DNA of 35,076 bases, from contig JAOAPR010000228.1 of assembly GCA_025463005.1 (NCBI GenBank), positions 1 to 35,076 of the forward strand, written 5' to 3'. Shown here piece after piece: positions 22,947 to 35,076 of this stretch. This DNA is from Bryobacterales bacterium. GTDB taxonomy: Bacteria > Acidobacteriota > Terriglobia > Bryobacterales > Bryobacteraceae. The position numbers were made by a program, and so were the translations under genes. Each line of letters opens with the position of its first letter. The stretch's first letter is position 1. Below the pieces are notes generated by a model, which worked only from the letters and a program-made list of their open reading frames with translations, ran no database searches and had not been told where the DNA came from.

Positions 22947-22973
22947 GCCCGATCGCGGGCCGCATTGTATACT
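22947..22973 (+). promoter_or_regulatory. Candidate promoter/hairpin ahead of the ABC permease
   Basis: A GC-rich inverted repeat (GCCCG and CGGGC with a 4-base spacer, 22947-22960) is followed by TATACT at 22968-22973, a near-consensus -10 box. The permease ATG is only 10 bases after the box and lacks a Shine-Dalgarno sequence, so the message could be almost leaderless. No good -35 is visible, and the hairpin occupies part of its place. Confidence 0.3.
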
Positions 22974-22982
22974 GATGCTCGA

Positions 22983-23759
22983 ATGATCCAACGAAAATGG
23001 AAGGGAGACTACCTCTTTCTCCTTGAGAACCTGGTGCTTAAGGACTTCCGAATCCGCTACCGGAACATGAGCCTGGGTATCCTGTGGTCGCTGATCAACC
23101 CGCTGGTAATGATGGCGGTCCTGACTTTCGTTTTCGGGCGCGTATTTGGCAAGCAGAACGAGCCTGCCTTCCCCCTTTTCGTCCTGTGCGGCCTGGTTCC
23201 ATTTAACTTCTTCACCGGCGCGTGGCTGAGCGGGACCGGGTCGATTGTGGCCAACGCCCAACTGGTGAAACGCGTGCCGGTGCCGCGCGAAGTGGTTCCG
23301 ATTGCGGCAGTTATTTCCAATTGCGTTCACCTGGTGATCCAGATGGCGCTGCTGTTGGTCCTGACGTTTTATTTCGGCTTAGGCGCCAACCGATTCTGGT
23401 TATGGCTGCTGCCGCTATGGCTGCTGTATATTGCGTTCGTGTGCGGCATCTCCCTCATATCGAGCGCGGTGAGCGTGTTCATCCGGGATACCCAGTACGT
23501 GGTGGAATCATTCAACCTGGTGCTGATGTACCTGGTGCCGATCTTCTACTCGTTTGAGATTATTCCGGCGAAGTATGCGGCCGTTTATCGCTTCAACCCG
23601 GTGGCGGCATTGGTGCTGGCGATGCGCAACATCCTGCTTGAACACCAGCCCCCTCCCACCACGCTGATCGTAAATATGGTGATTGCGGCGGCGGTGGCGC
23701 TCGGTGTAGGACTGCTCCTGTTCGGCAGATTGAAACGGAGTTTTTATGAGTATATTTGA
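22983..23759 (+). CDS. Wzm/TagG-type ABC transporter permease (polysaccharide export)
   Basis: This 258-residue integral membrane protein is of the ABC-2 family that exports O-antigen, teichoic acid or capsule chains. The amphipathic start (LVLKDFRIRYRNMSLGILWSL) is typical of Wzm/TagG. About six membrane segments follow (LVMMAVLTFVFGRVFG, FPLFVLCGLVPFNFF, an AVISNCVHLVIQMALLLVLT region, LWLLPLWLLYIAFVCGISL, FNLVLMYLVPIFYSFEIIP, and a last C-terminal one). RDTQYVVE and the proline-rich LVPIFYS loop are hallmark positions. Such permeases need an ATPase (Wzt/TagH), normally the next gene. None follows here: the next full gene is on the other strand. A TTG six codons upstream is the only other start. 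A short coupled reading frame overlaps the 3' end. Confidence 0.9.
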   Translation: MIQRKWKGDYLFLLENLVLKDFRIRYRNMSLGILWSLINPLVMMAVLTFVFGRVFGKQNEPAFPLFVLCGLVPFNFFTGAWLSGTGSIVANAQLVKRVPVPREVVPIAAVISNCVHLVIQMALLLVLTFYFGLGANRFWLWLLPLWLLYIAFVCGISLISSAVSVFIRDTQYVVESFNLVLMYLVPIFYSFEIIPAKYAAVYRFNPVAALVLAMRNILLEHQPPPTTLIVNMVIAAAVALGVGLLLFGRLKRSFYEYI

Positions 23760-28315: not shown

Positions 28316-29665
28316 ATGACTCTGGTGAGTGAGGCAATTGCCCGCTATCACAAACTCATCGAGAGCGAACCCTACATCGACCTGGCATGGGCGCATGCGC
28401 TCCAGGAGCGCATAAAGTCCGAAAAACTGGACGGAAGGCCCGTCTCGCCGGTGTTGCGGCCGCACTTGATTACGCAGAAGGACTACGCCGCCCTGGCGCG
28501 TGCCTCGGAGACCGTGCTCTCGGCGATCGCCCGTGTGGAGAAGCTGGCTCTGGAGACGCCCGCGCTGCTGGCGCGGATGCAGCTCCTGCCCGCAGAAAAA
28601 ATGCTGGCGGCGGTGGATCCGGGGTATTCCTCAGTCGGAATCACGTCGCTGCTGGATGCATCGGTCAACAATGGTTCGCTGCGCTTCACCGGCTTCAGCG
28701 CGGAGGCGCCCGCGGGCGTCCTGTACGGAGACCCGCTGGCCGATCTGTATTACGAATCACCGCCGGTCAAGCAATTTCGGAAGAAATACAAGCTGCAGAA
28801 ACTGGGCGGGGCCAAACACCTGCTGACCGGCTTGCTGAAGGCGTACAAGGAATTCGGCGGAAAACAAAAGAAACCGAATATCGCCATTGTCGAGTTCCGG
28901 GCGCCCTTCGCGGCCGCATCCAGCGATCACGCTCTGCTGGCCCAATTCTTCGCGCGCGAGGGATATCCGACCGAAGTGGTTTCGCCGGAGCAGCTCGAGT
29001 ACCGCAATAATGTTTTGCGGAAGGGCGATTTCACCATCGACATTCTGTACCGGCGCATCAAGGTGCAGGAGTTCCTGGTGCGCTTCGATCTCAACCATCC
29101 GCTGGTGCGAGCGTACAAAGAGCGAGCTGTGTGCATGGTCAACAGCTTCCGCGCCGATATCGGATCCAAGCGCGTGATCTTCGACCTGCTTACCGACGAA
29201 AAAATCACCGGCAAGTTTCCAGTAGCCGAGCGCCGCGCGATCAAGGACTACGTGCCGTGGACCCGGCTGGTGCAGGCGACCAGAACGTCGCACAACGGCC
29301 GCATGGTGGACCTTCCCGAGTTCGTTATGAAGCATCGAGCCAAACTGGTGCTCAAACCCAACGACGATTCCACCGATCTGCATCCGGTGCGGGGGTCGGA
29401 CGTAGACGACATGGCGTGGGAGAAGGCGCTGCGGCAGGCCATGCGAAGTCCCTTCGTGGTGCAGGAGACCGTGGAACCGACGCACGCCGTGTTCCCGCTG
29501 ATGCAGTATGGCAGCCTGATGATGAAAGACATGGTGGTGCACCTGCATCCGCACGCTTTCCTGGGCAAGGTTTACGGCGCGTCAAGCTGGCTCAGCGTCG
29601 CGGGCTCGTCCGGTTTCTCGACGCTCACCGGGCTCGCACCAACCTTTCTGCTGGAAGGCAAGTAA
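28316..29665 (+). CDS. Circularly permuted ATP-grasp-like protein, function unknown
   Basis: This is a 449-residue protein without signal peptide or membrane segments. The N-terminal 200 residues are not recognisable by eye. The second half resembles circularly permuted ATP-grasp / glutathionylspermidine-synthase-like proteins: the strand IDILYRRI (about residue 241), a following MVNSFRADIGSKRVIFDLL segment, LVLKPNDDSTDLHPV (about residue 343, the ATP-lysine region), and a closing FVVQETVEPTH. The usual glycine-rich loop after KP is replaced by a charged, Gly-poor one. ATP-grasp enzymes make amide or peptide bonds from a carboxylate and an amine, and the acceptor here is unknown. The usual companions of the permuted type (alpha-E, transglutaminase, N-terminal hydrolase genes) are absent. 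It lies 111 bases after typA with its own promoter candidate. Confidence 0.6.
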   Translation: MTLVSEAIARYHKLIESEPYIDLAWAHALQERIKSEKLDGRPVSPVLRPHLITQKDYAALARASETVLSAIARVEKLALETPALLARMQLLPAEKMLAAVDPGYSSVGITSLLDASVNNGSLRFTGFSAEAPAGVLYGDPLADLYYESPPVKQFRKKYKLQKLGGAKHLLTGLLKAYKEFGGKQKKPNIAIVEFRAPFAAASSDHALLAQFFAREGYPTEVVSPEQLEYRNNVLRKGDFTIDILYRRIKVQEFLVRFDLNHPLVRAYKERAVCMVNSFRADIGSKRVIFDLLTDEKITGKFPVAERRAIKDYVPWTRLVQATRTSHNGRMVDLPEFVMKHRAKLVLKPNDDSTDLHPVRGSDVDDMAWEKALRQAMRSPFVVQETVEPTHAVFPLMQYGSLMMKDMVVHLHPHAFLGKVYGASSWLSVAGSSGFSTLTGLAPTFLLEGK

Positions 29666-29701: not shown

Positions 29702-29932
29702 ATGGTCACCGTCTCCTCCAAAGGCCAGATCGCGATTCCTAAGGCGGTCCGCGACGCGCTGAATCTCTCGGAAGGCGCCAAGCTCCGGGTCGAACTGCGC
29801 GGGCAACAAATCATCCTGTCGAAAGAGCCCGGCTGGAAGAAGCTTGAAGGCGCCGCGGCTGGAACCGATCTGATCAAAGCGTTTGCAGCCCATAAAAAGC
29901 GGGAGCGCGCGCGTGAAGACTCGCGTCCTTGA
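29702..29932 (+). CDS. AbrB/SpoVT-type antitoxin (VapB-like)
   Basis: This 76-residue protein has the swapped-hairpin AbrB fold at its N-terminus (MVTVSSKGQIAIPKAVRDAL, then SEGAKLRVELRGQQIIL). Its basic C-terminal tail (AAHKKRERAREDSRP) should be the toxin-binding part. It is expected to neutralise the PIN-domain toxin encoded next and to repress the operon through the palindrome just upstream. The toxin GTG lies 20 bases before this gene's stop, so the two are translationally coupled. No Shine-Dalgarno precedes the ATG. The family call is firm; the VapB name is by pairing. Confidence 0.88.
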   Translation: MVTVSSKGQIAIPKAVRDALNLSEGAKLRVELRGQQIILSKEPGWKKLEGAAAGTDLIKAFAAHKKRERAREDSRP

Positions 29933-30320
29933 TTCGTGGGCGATCCTGGAATGGATCAATGCCAGGCAACCCGCCGGCAAGCTGGTAGCGGATGTACTGG
30001 CGCAGGCGGAAGCCGGCAAGATCCGGCTGCTGATGAGCGCGATCAATGCGGGCGAGATCTACTATTTTCTTCGCAAACATCATACCGTCACGCTTGCGGA
30101 AGACTGGCGTGCACTGTCGCAGACCCTTCCGGCGACCGTGGAAGTTCCTACCATGGCTGAGATTTGGGATGCCGCTGCACTAAAAGGACAGTTTCCGATT
30201 TCTTACGCGGACGCCTTCGCAGCGGCCTTGGCTCGGAAATACGATTGCGCGCTGATCACCGGAGACCGTGAGTTCCGGTCCGTGGCAAATCTGGAACTGC
30301 ACTGGATTGGGCGACCCTGA
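29913..30320 (+). CDS. PIN-domain toxin (VapC-like ribonuclease)
   Basis: This 135-residue PIN-domain protein is a probable Mg-dependent RNase that cuts tRNA or rRNA when its antitoxin is lost. The acidic active-site residues are in place: Asp7 (RVLDSWAILEW), Glu48 (NAGEIYY), Asp100 (SYADAFAAALA) and Asp118 (LITGDREF). I choose the GTG at 29913: GGGAG lies 7 bases upstream and the conserved VLDSWA strand begins right after it. An ATG 30 bases earlier lies deep inside the antitoxin gene and adds residues foreign to the family. It forms a typical coupled toxin-antitoxin pair with the AbrB-type gene. The RNA target cannot be told from sequence. Confidence 0.9.
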   Translation: MKTRVLDSWAILEWINARQPAGKLVADVLAQAEAGKIRLLMSAINAGEIYYFLRKHHTVTLAEDWRALSQTLPATVEVPTMAEIWDAAALKGQFPISYADAFAAALARKYDCALITGDREFRSVANLELHWIGRP

Positions 30321-30742: not shown

Positions 30743-31681
30743 TTACTCCGCCTTCTCGACCGTCACCTTAGCCCGAAGATTCGCCACGCCTGCAGTCGCG
30801 CGATCGTCGGTGACTGTGACCGCGATGGCATCATCGAGCCAATCGTGGATCGTGCCGTCGGGGTCATGCGACGCCAACGTAAGCGTGTAGGCGCGAGGAC
30901 ACAGATCGCACAAGAATGAGAACACTACCGTGACGGAATCTCCGACGGCCCGGGGACCCAGCTTGATCCGCTCCAGCTCCGTATTAGTGCCGTAGACCTC
31001 GAAGCCCACCTGCGTGCGAATCAGCAGCCCGAGTACAGGATTCTCCACGGCGTCGTTATAGCGCACGGTAGCGCGCACGGTCGCCATTTCGCCGCTCTTC
31101 CAAACGATGGTGGGCTTTCCTTCGGGACCAAGCGTCTCAATTGACATGAGCTCGGCACGTCCGTCGCCGTGCCGGAACGTCGGAGCCAGACGGGCCGGAA
31201 GCGTTTCGCCCCAACTGCGGACGCGCTCGGCGACATGTCTCCGGTACTTGGCAAGCGTCTCTTTAGGATCGCCCTTCGCCGCGATCCGTCCGCCGTCCAG
31301 CCACCAGACTTCGTCGCACAGCAGTTCCAGCAGGCTGTCTTCGTGCGAGGCCAGCAGCACTGTCGCCCCGCCGCGCCGCAGCCGATCGAGCCCTGTAAGC
31401 GTCCGCGCGCGCACCACCGCGTCCTGAGTAGCCAGTGCATGATCGAGCGCGATCACCGCGGCGGGCGCGAGGTTCAGCCCATCGCCCAAGGCCACGAAAC
31501 GTCGCTCCGGACCGGCGCGAACTTCTCCACTTTCGGGTTGCGCTGCGCCGCCGGCGAGCTTCAGCAGTTCGCTCACACCTGAGCCTTTTTCGCCGATCAC
31601 TCCGATGATGACGCCGGCCGGAGCTACCACCGAAATCCCGCTCAGGGGCGCCAAGGCCGCATTCCGAAACTCAAGCGACAT
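30743..31681 (-). CDS. Wzt-like protein with degenerate ABC ATPase domain and intact glycan-binding domain
   Basis: The 312-residue protein resembles Wzt, the ATPase of O-antigen ABC exporters, in its last parts. Residues about 1-155 are a shrunken ABC domain. Walker A reads GEKGSGVS (30-37) with Val36 in place of the essential lysine (GTG codon at 31574-31576). Walker B is AVIALDHALATQD (Asp80 kept, catalytic Glu replaced by His81). Only about 25 residues join SGEV to the Walker B strand, so the Q-loop, helical subdomain and LSGGQ signature are missing. The H-loop (LASHEDS, His113) and the C-terminal strand WWLDGGRIAAKGDP are normal. Residues about 170-310 match the Wzt C-terminal beta-sandwich that binds O-chain ends (VWKSGEMATVRATVRY, then GFEVYGTNTEL). 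The frame is fully open, so it looks like a maintained pseudo-ATPase rather than a pseudogene. It starts 16 bases after the beta-helix gene. Confidence 0.75.
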   Translation of the reverse strand: MSLEFRNAALAPLSGISVVAPAGVIIGVIGEKGSGVSELLKLAGGAAQPESGEVRAGPERRFVALGDGLNLAPAAVIALDHALATQDAVVRARTLTGLDRLRRGGATVLLASHEDSLLELLCDEVWWLDGGRIAAKGDPKETLAKYRRHVAERVRSWGETLPARLAPTFRHGDGRAELMSIETLGPEGKPTIVWKSGEMATVRATVRYNDAVENPVLGLLIRTQVGFEVYGTNTELERIKLGPRAVGDSVTVVFSFLCDLCPRAYTLTLASHDPDGTIHDWLDDAIAVTVTDDRATAGVANLRAKVTVEKAE

Positions 31682-31697
31682 TAAGAATCAGGATACG

Positions 31698-33077
31698 TCA
31701 CCGGACGGGCTTGTCGTCAGAACAAGTATTTCTGTCCACGGTGTTCACCGAGGCTGTCACGCCGGGGCCGAATGAAATACAGCGGCGCTTCATCTGATGG
31801 CCTGAAATTTCGTTTTCGCGAATCACGTTTCCGCGCACCTGTTCCAGGCGCGAGCCCACGCCCCGCCCCAGATAGATTCCGCTTTGAAGCATCTCCGGCT
31901 CATCGGCTTTGTAGACACATGCAAATTCCCTGGCGCTTTCGTTGCAACCCGCCAGGTTCAGGTTTACGAAGCGATTCCCGATGACACGGTTGCCGCTGCC
32001 CATCAGGAACAATCCGCCGAACTTGGATCCATCGATCACATTGCCGCTGATCTCGATGTTGTTCGAATGCGTGTCGGGATGGGCATTGTTCATGGCGATG
32101 CCGAAGCTCCCGAACGGATAATCCGTAGCGCCTTTCCGATTCGTGCAGCGGTTGTCCCGCACGGCGCCGTCATGGAAGCCGTCCAGATTGATGCATTGGC
32201 CGTTGACCTCTTCAAATGAGTTGCCCACATATTCGGACTGATCCACGTTGCCGGCGGTATCGATGGCGATGGGTATGCCCTGATTTTCTATATCAACGAC
32301 GTCGGCGGGAAAGCCGATGCGAGCTCCGGTGTTCTGCTCGATCCGCACCCTCGTGGCATGACCGAGCTGAAGGGCATCCCGGCCGATGGTGTCGAACTTA
32401 TTTCGCGCGAAGATGCCGTCCTGCTGACGCGGCGCGCGAAAATTGGAATGCGTCCACAGTCCGTTTCCGAGTATTCCTTGGAAGGTCGATTCAGTCACCT
32501 CAAACTTCGAAGATCCTTCTTCGAACAAGATTCCTCCGCTCAAGTTGTTTCGCCCGCGCGCGTCCCTTGAACCCGAATCTTTCACTGTCGCGCCCGAGAT
32601 GCGGACGCTGCGGGATTGGCTGACCAGGATCGGGAAATTGACCACATTGCTCAAGGTCAAGCGTTCGATCTGGAGACCCGTCACCTTGTTCGCCAACACA
32701 CCGTTATCCGGATACCAGACGCGGAAAGCGTTCTCCGGCGGAGCCATCTCAAGCGGCTTGGCGAGTTTGTCGCGATTGCCGTCGATATCGAAATCGTGGA
32801 GGTGGATGCGCTCCGCGTTCTCGAGCACCAGCACAGCCCTGCCCTTGAAATTGTCCGCTGCTTTCAGGCGAGTTCCGTTGCCAACGATTTCCAGGTCGTG
32901 CGCGCCGGGAGCCAGCGTCAGTTCAGAGGAAATTTCCACCTGACCTTGCGGTAGGCGAATCACGCCAGTGGTTTGCGATGTGAGGGCCGCGCGTATACGC
33001 GCTTCGGGGGAATTCCCGCAGCCCAGCGCCAGTGTACAAAGCAGAAGCGCTAGACGCGCTACTGCTTGCTGGTCCAC
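31698..33077 (-). CDS. Parallel beta-helix lipoprotein
   Basis: This is a 459-residue protein with a lipoprotein signal peptide (RLALLLCTLALGC, lipobox cysteine followed by GNS). A right-handed beta-helix follows, shown by repeated N-x-I/V/F strands such as GNGTRLKAADNF, HLHDFDIDGNRDKL, NNIEISGNVIDGS, NRVIGNRFVNLNL and GNVIRENEISGH. Such folds occur in pectate-lyase-like enzymes, epimerases and surface adhesins that handle polysaccharide. No catalytic set is evident to me. I start it at the GTG at 33077, which overlaps the end of the S9 peptidase gene; a GTG 33 bases earlier would add residues before the signal peptide. There is no other suitable start before the hydrophobic stretch. The Wzt-like gene follows within 16 bases. 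Role: probably outer-membrane anchored and facing a glycan, by inference. Confidence 0.75.
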   Translation of the reverse strand: MDQQAVARLALLLCTLALGCGNSPEARIRAALTSQTTGVIRLPQGQVEISSELTLAPGAHDLEIVGNGTRLKAADNFKGRAVLVLENAERIHLHDFDIDGNRDKLAKPLEMAPPENAFRVWYPDNGVLANKVTGLQIERLTLSNVVNFPILVSQSRSVRISGATVKDSGSRDARGRNNLSGGILFEEGSSKFEVTESTFQGILGNGLWTHSNFRAPRQQDGIFARNKFDTIGRDALQLGHATRVRIEQNTGARIGFPADVVDIENQGIPIAIDTAGNVDQSEYVGNSFEEVNGQCINLDGFHDGAVRDNRCTNRKGATDYPFGSFGIAMNNAHPDTHSNNIEISGNVIDGSKFGGLFLMGSGNRVIGNRFVNLNLAGCNESAREFACVYKADEPEMLQSGIYLGRGVGSRLEQVRGNVIRENEISGHQMKRRCISFGPGVTASVNTVDRNTCSDDKPVR

Positions 33078-35076
33078 TGGCCGATCCAATCCAGGAACTG
33101 GGAATACCACAACACCGTGTTTTGCGGCTTCACGACCCAGTGGCCCTCATCCGGAAACAGAAGCAGCTTCGAAGGCACTTTCTCCGACTTCAGCGCGGTG
33201 AACAACTGCATCCCCTGGCTCACTGGAACGCGATAATCCTGCTCGCCGTGAATCACCAGGGTAGGCGTCTTGAATTCCTTGACGAAATAACTCGGAGACC
33301 ACTTCGAATAAATCTCCGGGTTGTCCCAGGGCATGCCTTTGAACTCCCATTGGACGAACCAAAGTTCTTCGGTCTCGGCCGCCATACTGCGCAGATCGAA
33401 CACACCGGCATGCGTCACGAACGCCTTGAATCGATCCGTATGACCGAGCATCCAGTCGACCATATACCCTCCATACGACCCTCCTGCGGCCGCCATACGG
33501 GCGGAATCGGCATAAGGCAATGCCGCCACGCTGTCCACCACCGCCATGATGTCCTCGTAAGCTTTGCCGCCCCAATCGCCGCTGATTTCCTCGGTATATT
33601 TTTGGCCGTAGCCGGTCGAGCCGCGCGGATTCGGCATCACGACCAGATACCCGGCGCCGGCGAACACCTGGGCGTTCCAGCGATAGGTCCACGATTCACC
33701 CCATGATCCCTGCGGACCGCCGTGAATCAGGAACAGCACCGGATATTTTTTCGTGGGGGAGAAATCGGGCGGTTTCACGACGAAGGCGTGCACGCGAGTC
33801 CGATCCGCGCTATCTGCATACATCTCTTCGAGCGGCGCGATCGCCGCACTCGACAACACGGCGTCGTTCAAGTGTGTAAGCGCCACCCCAGTGCCGCCAT
33901 TCGACGTCGCACGATAAATCTCGGTGGGATGCGAACCGCTGACCTCGGTGTAAATCATCGTCCGCCCGTCAGAGGTGAACTGTACGTCATCCAGGGTCGA
34001 TGCGCCCGCGATGATGTTGCGCGAGCCGCCGCCGGATGCCTGGATCATTTGCAGGCCGGTGCGTCCCCGATCCTCCACCGTGAAGAACAAGCGGGTGGAA
34101 TCTGGCGACCACGTGACGGTTCCCACCCAGCGGTCCAGGTTTTCGGTCAGGCTGGTCGCGCGGCCGGTGGTCCGATCGAGCACCATGAGGCGCCACCGAT
34201 CGCTTTCATACCCACCGCGCGCCTGCGACCGGAACGCGAGGAGTTTTCCATCCGGCGAGTACAGCGGCGTGTTTTCCGCCCCGGGGCCGCTGGTGATTTT
34301 CTTGACGTCGCCGCCGCCGATCGGCACCACATAGATATCCGAGTTGGTACTGGTGGCGGGATCCGGGTCTGCGTTCATGGCGAACGCAACCTCATTCGAA
34401 TCGGGTGAAATCGCATAATCGTCCTGCCCGCCAAGAGAGAACGGCGGAACATCATTGGGTCCGGGTGTCAGATCTTTGATACCGGATCCATCCGAATCGA
34501 CCACCATCAGGTGCCTGCGGCGCGCTCCCTGCCACTGATTCCAGTGCCGGTACAGCAGCGAAGTATAGATGCGAGCCTTGACCTTGCTTTTGGCTTCATC
34601 GTCGAGCTTGCGCTGGTTACACGCGTCGTCGGCGCTGCACTCCGGGTAGACGCTCGAAAGGAACACAAGCTTCTTGCCGTCCGGCGAAACCAGGATGCCT
34701 TCGGCCTCGGCCGCGAACTTGGTGACTTGATGGGGATTCGAACCGTCGGCATTCATTACCCAGATTTGAGAAGAACCGCCTCGGTTCGAAATAAAGAAGA
34801 TCTGCTTGGAATCGGGCGACCAGCGGGGGCGTTCATTCACGCTTCCGTCAAAGGTGAGCTGGCGCGGAGTGCCTCCTTGCGTCGGGACCACGTAAACCGA
34901 GGTCGGCTTGGCGTTCTTGTCGAGATCAACCCTTTGCACGGTGAAAGCAACCTGGGCCCCGTCGGGAGAGAGTACCGGTTCGCTCATCCGCGCGAGCTTC
35001 AGCATCGTATCTACAGTAAACGGCTGCTTTTGCGCGACCAGCGCTGGGACGCAGATCGACGCACACAGAAGGACTA
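33059..35076 (-). CDS. Exported S9-family peptidase (prolyl oligopeptidase/acylaminoacyl-peptidase type), 5' end outside window
   Basis: The visible 671 codons run off the window edge. The first residues seen (VLLCASICVPALVA, then QKQPFTVDTMLKLARM) are the hydrophobic core and cleavage site of a signal peptide, so the true start lies beyond 35076. The ATG at 35005 is internal. A beta-propeller of PD40 repeats follows (VLSPDGAQVAFTV, RWSPDSKQIFFIS, LVSPDGKKLVFLS), then an alpha/beta-hydrolase domain. The triad is the Ser in GGSYGGYM (codon 33476-33478), the Asp in HGEQDYRVP (33236-33238) and the His in DEGHWV (33140-33142). It probably degrades peptides in the periplasm for nutrition. Its stop overlaps the beta-helix lipoprotein start, so the two are translationally coupled. 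Confidence 0.92.
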   Translation of the reverse strand, partial: VLLCASICVPALVAQKQPFTVDTMLKLARMSEPVLSPDGAQVAFTVQRVDLDKNAKPTSVYVVPTQGGTPRQLTFDGSVNERPRWSPDSKQIFFISNRGGSSQIWVMNADGSNPHQVTKFAAEAEGILVSPDGKKLVFLSSVYPECSADDACNQRKLDDEAKSKVKARIYTSLLYRHWNQWQGARRRHLMVVDSDGSGIKDLTPGPNDVPPFSLGGQDDYAISPDSNEVAFAMNADPDPATSTNSDIYVVPIGGGDVKKITSGPGAENTPLYSPDGKLLAFRSQARGGYESDRWRLMVLDRTTGRATSLTENLDRWVGTVTWSPDSTRLFFTVEDRGRTGLQMIQASGGGSRNIIAGASTLDDVQFTSDGRTMIYTEVSGSHPTEIYRATSNGGTGVALTHLNDAVLSSAAIAPLEEMYADSADRTRVHAFVVKPPDFSPTKKYPVLFLIHGGPQGSWGESWTYRWNAQVFAGAGYLVVMPNPRGSTGYGQKYTEEISGDWGGKAYEDIMAVVDSVAALPYADSARMAAAGGSYGGYMVDWMLGHTDRFKAFVTHAGVFDLRSMAAETEELWFVQWEFKGMPWDNPEIYSKWSPSYFVKEFKTPTLVIHGEQDYRVPVSQGMQLFTALKSEKVPSKLLLFPDEGHWVVKPQNTVLWYSQFLDWIGQWTSKQ

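Follow-up and report, generated by a model that had tools for sequence, protein, structure and literature searches.

In known systems, Wzt is encoded beside the Wzm permease, and the helical subdomain of ABC transporters faces that permease. The described protein closest to the one analysed here, both in sequence and in fold, is the Wzt of Aquifex aeolicus (PDB IDs: 7k2t and 8dku; CBD: 6o14 and 8dky), in which, according to PMC9445017, the methylated cap is contacted by Ile299 (through its backbone), Leu300, Asn313, Thr346, Ala348, His350 and Trp362, and three NBD helices (174-189, 201-207 and 226-240) lie at the interface with the CBD (chain numbering is one higher than that of the paper). 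Cap-dependent export is described with the reader and the motor fused in one protein; that the two can also work in trans was learned by engineering them apart: according to the introduction of PMC9445017, WzmWzt lacking its CBD regains transport when a CBD is expressed separately. This rescue makes a trans-acting reader mechanically possible, as the CBD works apart from the ATPase; that split was made in the laboratory, whereas the protein described below keeps a dead NBD attached. Among the titles and abstracts listed in searches of open full text, a scope that lies mostly outside subscription journals, none was found to describe an ATPase-dead Wzt paralogue or the gene set reported here.

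The window, i.e. the whole stretch of 35,076 nucleotides that was analysed, is an entire contig of a Bryobacteraceae genome in 342 contigs. It encodes an ATPase-dead, shortened paralogue of Wzt, hereafter PSW (Table 1). Its Walker A motif reads GEKGSGVS from Gly30, with Val36 replacing the Lys, its Walker B motif reads L-D80-H81, with His81 replacing the catalytic Glu, and the helical/signature subdomain is absent from the NBD remnant in both the alignment and the model. The core strands, a helix at residues 88-103, the H-loop helix (115-121) and a hinge-type helix (139-158) are kept, as judged from the alignment and from DSSP of the model. The ABC_tran profile scores 21.2 bits on this protein, under the Pfam cut-off of 25, and no NCBIfam equivalog fits it, the best 25 of 73 matching families being far under their cut-offs.

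Table 1. Features of the window at and around the PSW gene.
Feature	Coordinates	Strand	Evidence
PSW, ATPase-dead shortened Wzt paralogue, 312 aa	30743..31681	-	ATG start, Pfam, family-wide conservation, AlphaFold model
NBD remnant, PSW residues 1-158	31208..31681	-	DSSP of the model and alignment
Val36 codon (Walker A Lys position)	31574..31576	-	Alignment
His81 codon (Walker B catalytic Glu position)	31439..31441	-	Alignment
Wzt_C glycan-binding domain, residues 170-301	30779..31174	-	Pfam PF14524, E=2e-27; Foldseek 8dky_A, TMt 0.79
Predicted methyl-cap pocket span, N233/T268/A270/H272/W281 (L219 and L220 just upstream)	30839..30985	-	HMMER alignment to A. aeolicus Wzt and pocket residues of PMC9445017; conservation
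Exported right-handed beta-helix lipoprotein, polysaccharide-lyase-like	31698..33110	-	Pfam Beta_helix, lipobox-like N-terminus, model, co-occurrence
S9-family peptidase (upstream; overlaps the beta-helix ORF as listed)	33059..35005	-	Pfam, neighbour clustering
Wzm-like permease, not assigned to the module	22965..23759	+	Pfam ABC2_membrane; no association with PSW

The family was sampled in 200 genomes drawn from the Bryobacteraceae (Acidobacteriota), to which the window belongs. The window PSW has matches at E<=1e-30 in 158 of them; the best match is a PSW in 122 genomes (E<=3.5e-62), and in the other 36 the scores resemble those of full-length Wzt (E>=2.9e-56). The dividing line between the two lies between E 3.5e-62 and 2.4e-58, the region below it being checked in part only (seven loci, nine genomes); since truncated or frame-split PSW genes were found there in four genomes (G006, G087, G102 and G191), 122 is a lower bound. 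We aligned 129 PSW sequences (those of the 122 genomes, all fetched, and seven named relatives) with nine full-length Wzt. In every PSW, the Q-loop columns are gapped and the helical/signature segment is missing; the spacing between the Walker A Lys and the Walker B Asp positions is 44 in 80 of the 129, including the window; most others have a shorter one, whereas all nine full-length Wzt have 106. Some lineages are shortened further, with 249-aa frames in G070, G110 and G133. The catalytic Glu is present in a single PSW (128/129 non-Glu, six of them gaps); His is the commonest residue at this position family-wide (70/129) and is unique to the window within its own clade of 18 rows, the other 17 having Gln. 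Of the PSW, 34 retain the Walker A Lys and 95 have lost it; the H-loop His is present in 100/129.

The ages of these losses differ. The deletion is fixed and the loss of the Glu nearly so, which agrees with the fixation that the original prediction had proposed to look for; the loss of the Lys falls short of it, with 14 changes on the tree, of which at least five are forced by well-supported branches. Homologues with a normal Walker A and signature, which that prediction had taken as the mark of a recent pseudogene, are encountered only as to the first motif: the signature occurs in 0/129 PSW, and none of the copies with a Walker A Lys belongs to the window's clade. As the helical/signature segment is absent throughout and the Glu in all but one sequence, no usual ATPase activity is expected of PSW, which, judging from its motifs, can probably no longer burn ATP. 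The 17 closest other copies (10 from the same genus by handle and the seven named relatives, all in one clade with the window) have the deletion too, and none of them has Lys at the Walker A position or Glu at the Walker B position, so the losses are not a sequencing error, the other objection anticipated at the outset. Near-copies of the window PSW at 90-93% identity come from MAGs labelled Terriglobia or Bryobacteraceae. One record labelled Bordetella parapertussis (CALQCC020000033.1, locus L042) holds a PSW locus of the Bryobacteraceae type and is probably a mislabelled MAG.

In a quick tree of 68 representatives, rooted on one long-branched row, PSW forms one clade (SH-aLRT 99) apart from full-length Wzt, and the family is apparently of single origin. 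A draw of 396 genomes across the phylum contained PSW in three only, all of the window's genus, and none outside the Bryobacteraceae, the fourth match (G395) being a full-length Wzt. Conservation is highest in the C-terminal part: the mean frequency of the top residue is 0.71 at residues 171-312 versus 0.39-0.64 in the preceding blocks. When the window is paired with each of its three nearest copies, dN/dS is 0.034-0.074 for residues 1-78, 0.024-0.067 for 79-150 and 0.031-0.047 for 170-305, with dS values (0.68-1.44) partly near saturation. Across 18 pairs spanning the family, the NBD pieces reach 0.25-0.48 in five comparisons, two of them on very few sites, and Wzt_C stays at or below 0.11. 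The ABC-domain motif losses, and the copies in G087 and G102 that look frame-split, could be read as signs of a pseudogene or of an assembly artefact. That explanation is extremely unlikely, given that 119 of the 122 matches are free of internal stops (one each in G049, G009 and G132), that dN/dS is low (0.024-0.074) over the whole protein, and that two motifs are near-invariant, D-E-x-W-W (residues 123-127) and C-x-L-C (258-261); a recent pseudogene, specifically, is ruled out by the family-wide motif pattern together with dN/dS. By this sequence record, PSW is old and selected rather than decaying, and the original description of a maintained pseudo-ATPase of the Wzt family is upheld by motif losses across 129 sequences, low dN/dS and a single clade.

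The nearest PSW paralogue in the window's genome is a full-length Wzt of 395 aa encoded on another contig (C16), with 36% identity over residues 64-307; we refer to it and its orthologues as L095-type Wzt. Its sequence retains the ABC motifs. In eight L095-type Wzt that were examined, neither of the two near-invariant PSW motifs is present in this form.

The AlphaFold2 monomer of PSW, built from 60 aligned family sequences, has a pLDDT of 92.3 and a pTM of 0.81. Its top Foldseek match in the PDB is the A. aeolicus WzmWzt (7k2t_C, E 2.5e-23), and the A. aeolicus CBD with bound 3-O-methyl-D-mannose (8dky_A) aligns to it with a TM of 0.79 of target at 2.8 A; 2r5o and 5hno are further matches of the Wzt_C fold. 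In the HMMER alignment, the seven cap contacts correspond, in the order given above, to L219, L220, N233, T268, A270, H272 and W281 of the window, and the five pocket residues Asn/Thr/Ala/His/Trp are all kept in 126 of the 129 PSW, which bears out the earlier suggestion of an intact glycan-binding domain. Two other Aquifex glycan contacts are changed, Tyr233 to Arg147 and His355 to Pro274. Overall, PSW shares with the A. aeolicus protein the Wzt_C fold, the pocket residues, the NBD core strands, the H-loop helix and the hinge-type helix, its helices 88-103, 115-121 and 139-158 aligning with the three NBD helices at the CBD interface; it differs in having no Q-loop, helical subdomain, signature or catalytic Glu, and mostly no Walker A Lys. 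L095-type Wzt has four of the five pocket residues, with Gln in place of the His in 8/8 examined. The E. coli O9a Wzt (CBD: 2r5o) has a Wzt_C fold like that of PSW, whereas, in a gapped alignment, the pocket Trp and His are missing from it, the Trp being matched by Arg and the His by Pro; E. coli O9a has another cap. A candidate zinc site in PSW (C258/C261/H272/H279) was rejected: by the secondary structure of the model, the 249-258/263-272 hairpin separates C258 and C261 from H272 and H279, the two pairs being at opposite ends of it, and C258 (8/8) and H279 (7/8) are present in L095-type Wzt too.

Taken with the sequence and the model, this pocket makes it quite possible, if not yet probable, that PSW is a duplicated Wzt whose ATPase and helical (permease-facing) parts were lost and which has been retained to read, in trans, the methylated end of a polysaccharide. 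Kept pockets would also suit a free-standing lectin unrelated to export, which only binds a methylated glycan in the cytoplasm, and such a role fits with the 17 of 122 PSW genomes in which no L095-type Wzt was found at E<=1e-100. We consider it improbable, as export is indicated by the ancestry shared with Wzt, by the NBD face that PSW retains and by its joint decay with the Wzt pathway (described below).

Clustering of neighbouring ORFs at 54 loci and the window yielded two recurrent neighbours of PSW: at 32 loci the beta-helix protein, and at 22 a class I SAM methyltransferase whose C-terminal half has no assignment. The beta-helix gene of the window lies directly upstream of PSW, co-directional and with a gap of 16 nt; its true start may be downstream of the listed GTG. 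The overlapping S9-family peptidase is a neighbour mainly in the window's genus and probably stands outside the module. By profile, the beta-helix was found in the fetched stretch at 84/129 PSW loci (79/112 where the stretch included 2.5 kb or more upstream; 75 by the adjacency cut) and the methyltransferase at 68/129. The beta-helix gene is upstream on the same strand at 13/18 loci of the window's clade and on the opposite strand at the other 71 loci that have it. In counts that leave out the four truncated or frame-split PSW, PSW and the beta-helix occur together in 111 of the 200 genomes, PSW alone in 11, the beta-helix alone in 10 and neither in 68 (Fisher p=1.6e-30); with one genome per genus, the corresponding numbers are 47/3/4/22 (p~4e-12). 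For PSW and the methyltransferase (E<=1e-70), they are 115/7/13/65 and, per genus, 49/1/6/20 (p~4e-12). All these comparisons ignore phylogeny, and the cut-offs of 1e-70 for the methyltransferase and 1e-100 for L095-type Wzt were picked after the score lists were seen. Nine of the ten genomes with the beta-helix only were fetched: four are those with a truncated or frame-split PSW, in four (G016, G039, G115 and G129) the genes are at or near contig ends, and in G040 no PSW was found in the 9 kb read. The beta-helix neighbour, already pointed to as a potential partner, is thus a real partner gene by co-occurrence.

The model of the beta-helix protein has a pLDDT of 95.5, and its best PDB match is the Vibrio cholerae lyase RbmB (9ozd; E 3.4e-9, TM ~0.5; weak sequence match, E 2.7e-4). 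Both are right-handed beta-helices with 12-15% identity, the likeness being one of fold and not of catalytic residues. The N-termini are lipobox-like or hydrophobic in many copies; a regular expression classed 26/81 as lipobox-like, a few of them doubtful. In the window's genome, the methyltransferase is encoded on another contig (C88), and no glycan genes were found among those of its neighbours named by Pfam. The C-terminal half of the methyltransferase was considered as a second Wzt_C domain and rejected at the sensitivity of hhalign (probability 0.6%, E 0.099). In genus g41, a methyltransferase and a shortened beta-helix share one stop-free frame at three loci (L185 4294-6915, L186 4421-6859 and L187 4168-6798), with a signal-peptide-like stretch between the two parts; either the two are fused or translation starts within the frame.

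Other features were seen near PSW. An ATP-grasp-like protein under the Pfam cut-off (window 28316-29665, + strand) is found at 43/129 fetched loci, downstream of PSW and on the opposite strand. Just downstream of this gene in the window are an ORF for a MazE-type antitoxin (29702-29932, +) and a PIN-domain ORF (29883-30320, +), likely a VapBC-type pair.

L095-type Wzt co-occurs with PSW in 105 of the 200 genomes (PSW only 17, Wzt only 36, neither 42; p=3e-9, ignoring phylogeny), the association being weaker with one genome per genus (43/7/16/10, p=0.02). This difference, together with the loss of the helical subdomain and with the per-genus co-occurrence of PSW being strongest with the methyltransferase, would suit a PSW that works with the methyltransferase and not with the exporter: as a cap sensor, it would bind the methylated end and thereby determine how long the chain becomes, end its elongation or regulate the methyltransferase, with no need of Wzm-Wzt contact. 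We regard this as rather unlikely: it leaves unexplained why L095-type Wzt (E<=1e-100) is absent from all four genomes in which the methyltransferase has diverged (see below) and from only 13 of the 118 other PSW genomes. In these 13 the PSW pocket is intact (e.g. G010 and G110), so L095-type Wzt is no strict requirement; G010, an assembly of about 50 contigs, has kept both the methyltransferase and the beta-helix.

L095-type Wzt being the nearest paralogue, PSW might instead act as an inhibitor or decoy, forming a heterodimer with the full-length protein through an exchanged C-terminal strand and poisoning or gating its ATPase. The residues of this strand are conserved (R294, G298, V299 and L302), and O antigen binding lowers the hydrolytic activity in A. 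aeolicus (PMC9445017, abstract). A pure inhibitor, however, needs neither a complete sugar pocket, as kept in nearly all PSW, nor a methyltransferase or an exported beta-helix protein, and we give this role little probability.

Docking on the Wzm-like permease of the window, which the original prediction had put forward, finds no support. In the 200 genomes, the ortholog of this permease and PSW show no association (81/41/48/30, Fisher p=0.55; 0.44 with one genome per genus; the ortholog set of 129 genomes drops 15 with E between 1e-30 and 1e-36), it was not found in 41 of the 122 PSW genomes, and the pair served as the negative control for the co-occurrence of PSW with other genes. Apart from the window, no PSW locus that was fetched (128, of 3.1-19.5 kb) contains the ortholog; by coordinates, it lies 7 kb from PSW in the window and 7-9 kb away in three close relatives (G119, G186 and G162). 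No Wzt was found near the three Wzm of the genome, within the window, 16 kb of C174 and 10 kb of C128, and no Wzm in nine loci with full-length Wzt. The ORF directly upstream of the full-length Wzt (L095 28-2280, +) matches the Pfam family 'Non-contractile tail sheath protein TIM barrel' (E=5e-14).

The pocket is broken in only three of the 129 PSW, namely those of G089 (NTYEW), G064 and G107 (both TTTQW). The beta-helix (E<=1e-30) is missing from all three genomes and from 8 of the 119 with an intact pocket (p=5.6e-4, two of the three being of one genus). Among the 91 PSW genomes whose methyltransferase was scored, it reaches at least 564 bits with the exception of six, in which it is present in pieces (G063 and G096) or diverged (G064, G107, G089 and G193); in G107 a contig end truncates it as well. 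G064 and G107 have lost SAM motif I, whereas G089 keeps most of it but has lost conserved stretches elsewhere. Profile scores, in which a gap is plainly visible, were used for this purpose because a test of integrity by motif regular expression proved too strict and was dropped, as it flagged 19/91 sequences, i.e. the four diverged, the two in pieces and 13 conservative variants. All four genomes with a diverged methyltransferase lack the beta-helix as well as L095-type Wzt. Among them, G193, the sister of G089 (SH-aLRT 92), has its PSW pocket intact. As only two lineages are involved, the joint decay is suggestive and not proof. At two loci, L059 (8219-9310, -) and L119 (2546-3607, +), a methyltransferase homologue without SAM motif I but with its C-terminal half kept adjoins a pocket-broken PSW; as read from its motifs, this homologue is a second pseudo-enzyme in the module.

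With these results, PSW may still be the carrier or the regulatory partner of an active Wzt that was suggested at first, but the evidence on its role leans towards cap reading. The SAM fold and the co-occurrence suggest that the methyltransferase of the module would act in the cytoplasm, capping a lipid-linked polysaccharide at its non-reducing end. The Wzt_C pocket of PSW, for which residues and fold are matched in silico, could then bind this cap, aided by the hinge-type helix of the NBD remnant. Dimerising through its C-terminal strand, either with itself or with L095-type Wzt, PSW might present or certify the capped chain to Wzm-Wzt, which would hydrolyse the ATP. Outside the cytoplasm, the exported beta-helix protein may act on the polysaccharide in a lyase- or epimerase-like manner, as its fold suggests. 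Besides the two changed Aquifex contacts, the 13 intact-pocket genomes without L095-type Wzt, the intact pocket of G193 and the higher dN/dS of some NBD pieces, two further points count against a trans-acting reader: L095-type Wzt already has a Wzt_C of its own with four of the five pocket residues, and PSW persists where the rest of the module has decayed.

We further propose, with marked reservation, that this is a natural split of the cap reader from the export motor, in which the ATPase-dead paralogue would provide ABC-type polysaccharide export with a second, methyl-specific check of the cap in trans and be inherited with the cap-making methyltransferase and the exported lyase-like protein. 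What had originally been noticed at this locus did not include the methyltransferase, the methyl type of the pocket or the coordinated decay. If true, the family-wide occurrence of a natural pseudo-ATPase whose methyl-cap pocket is intact would show that evolution has made the same split as the engineered one. The three specific genes named here offer a handle on how soil Acidobacteriota build and certify their surface polysaccharide.
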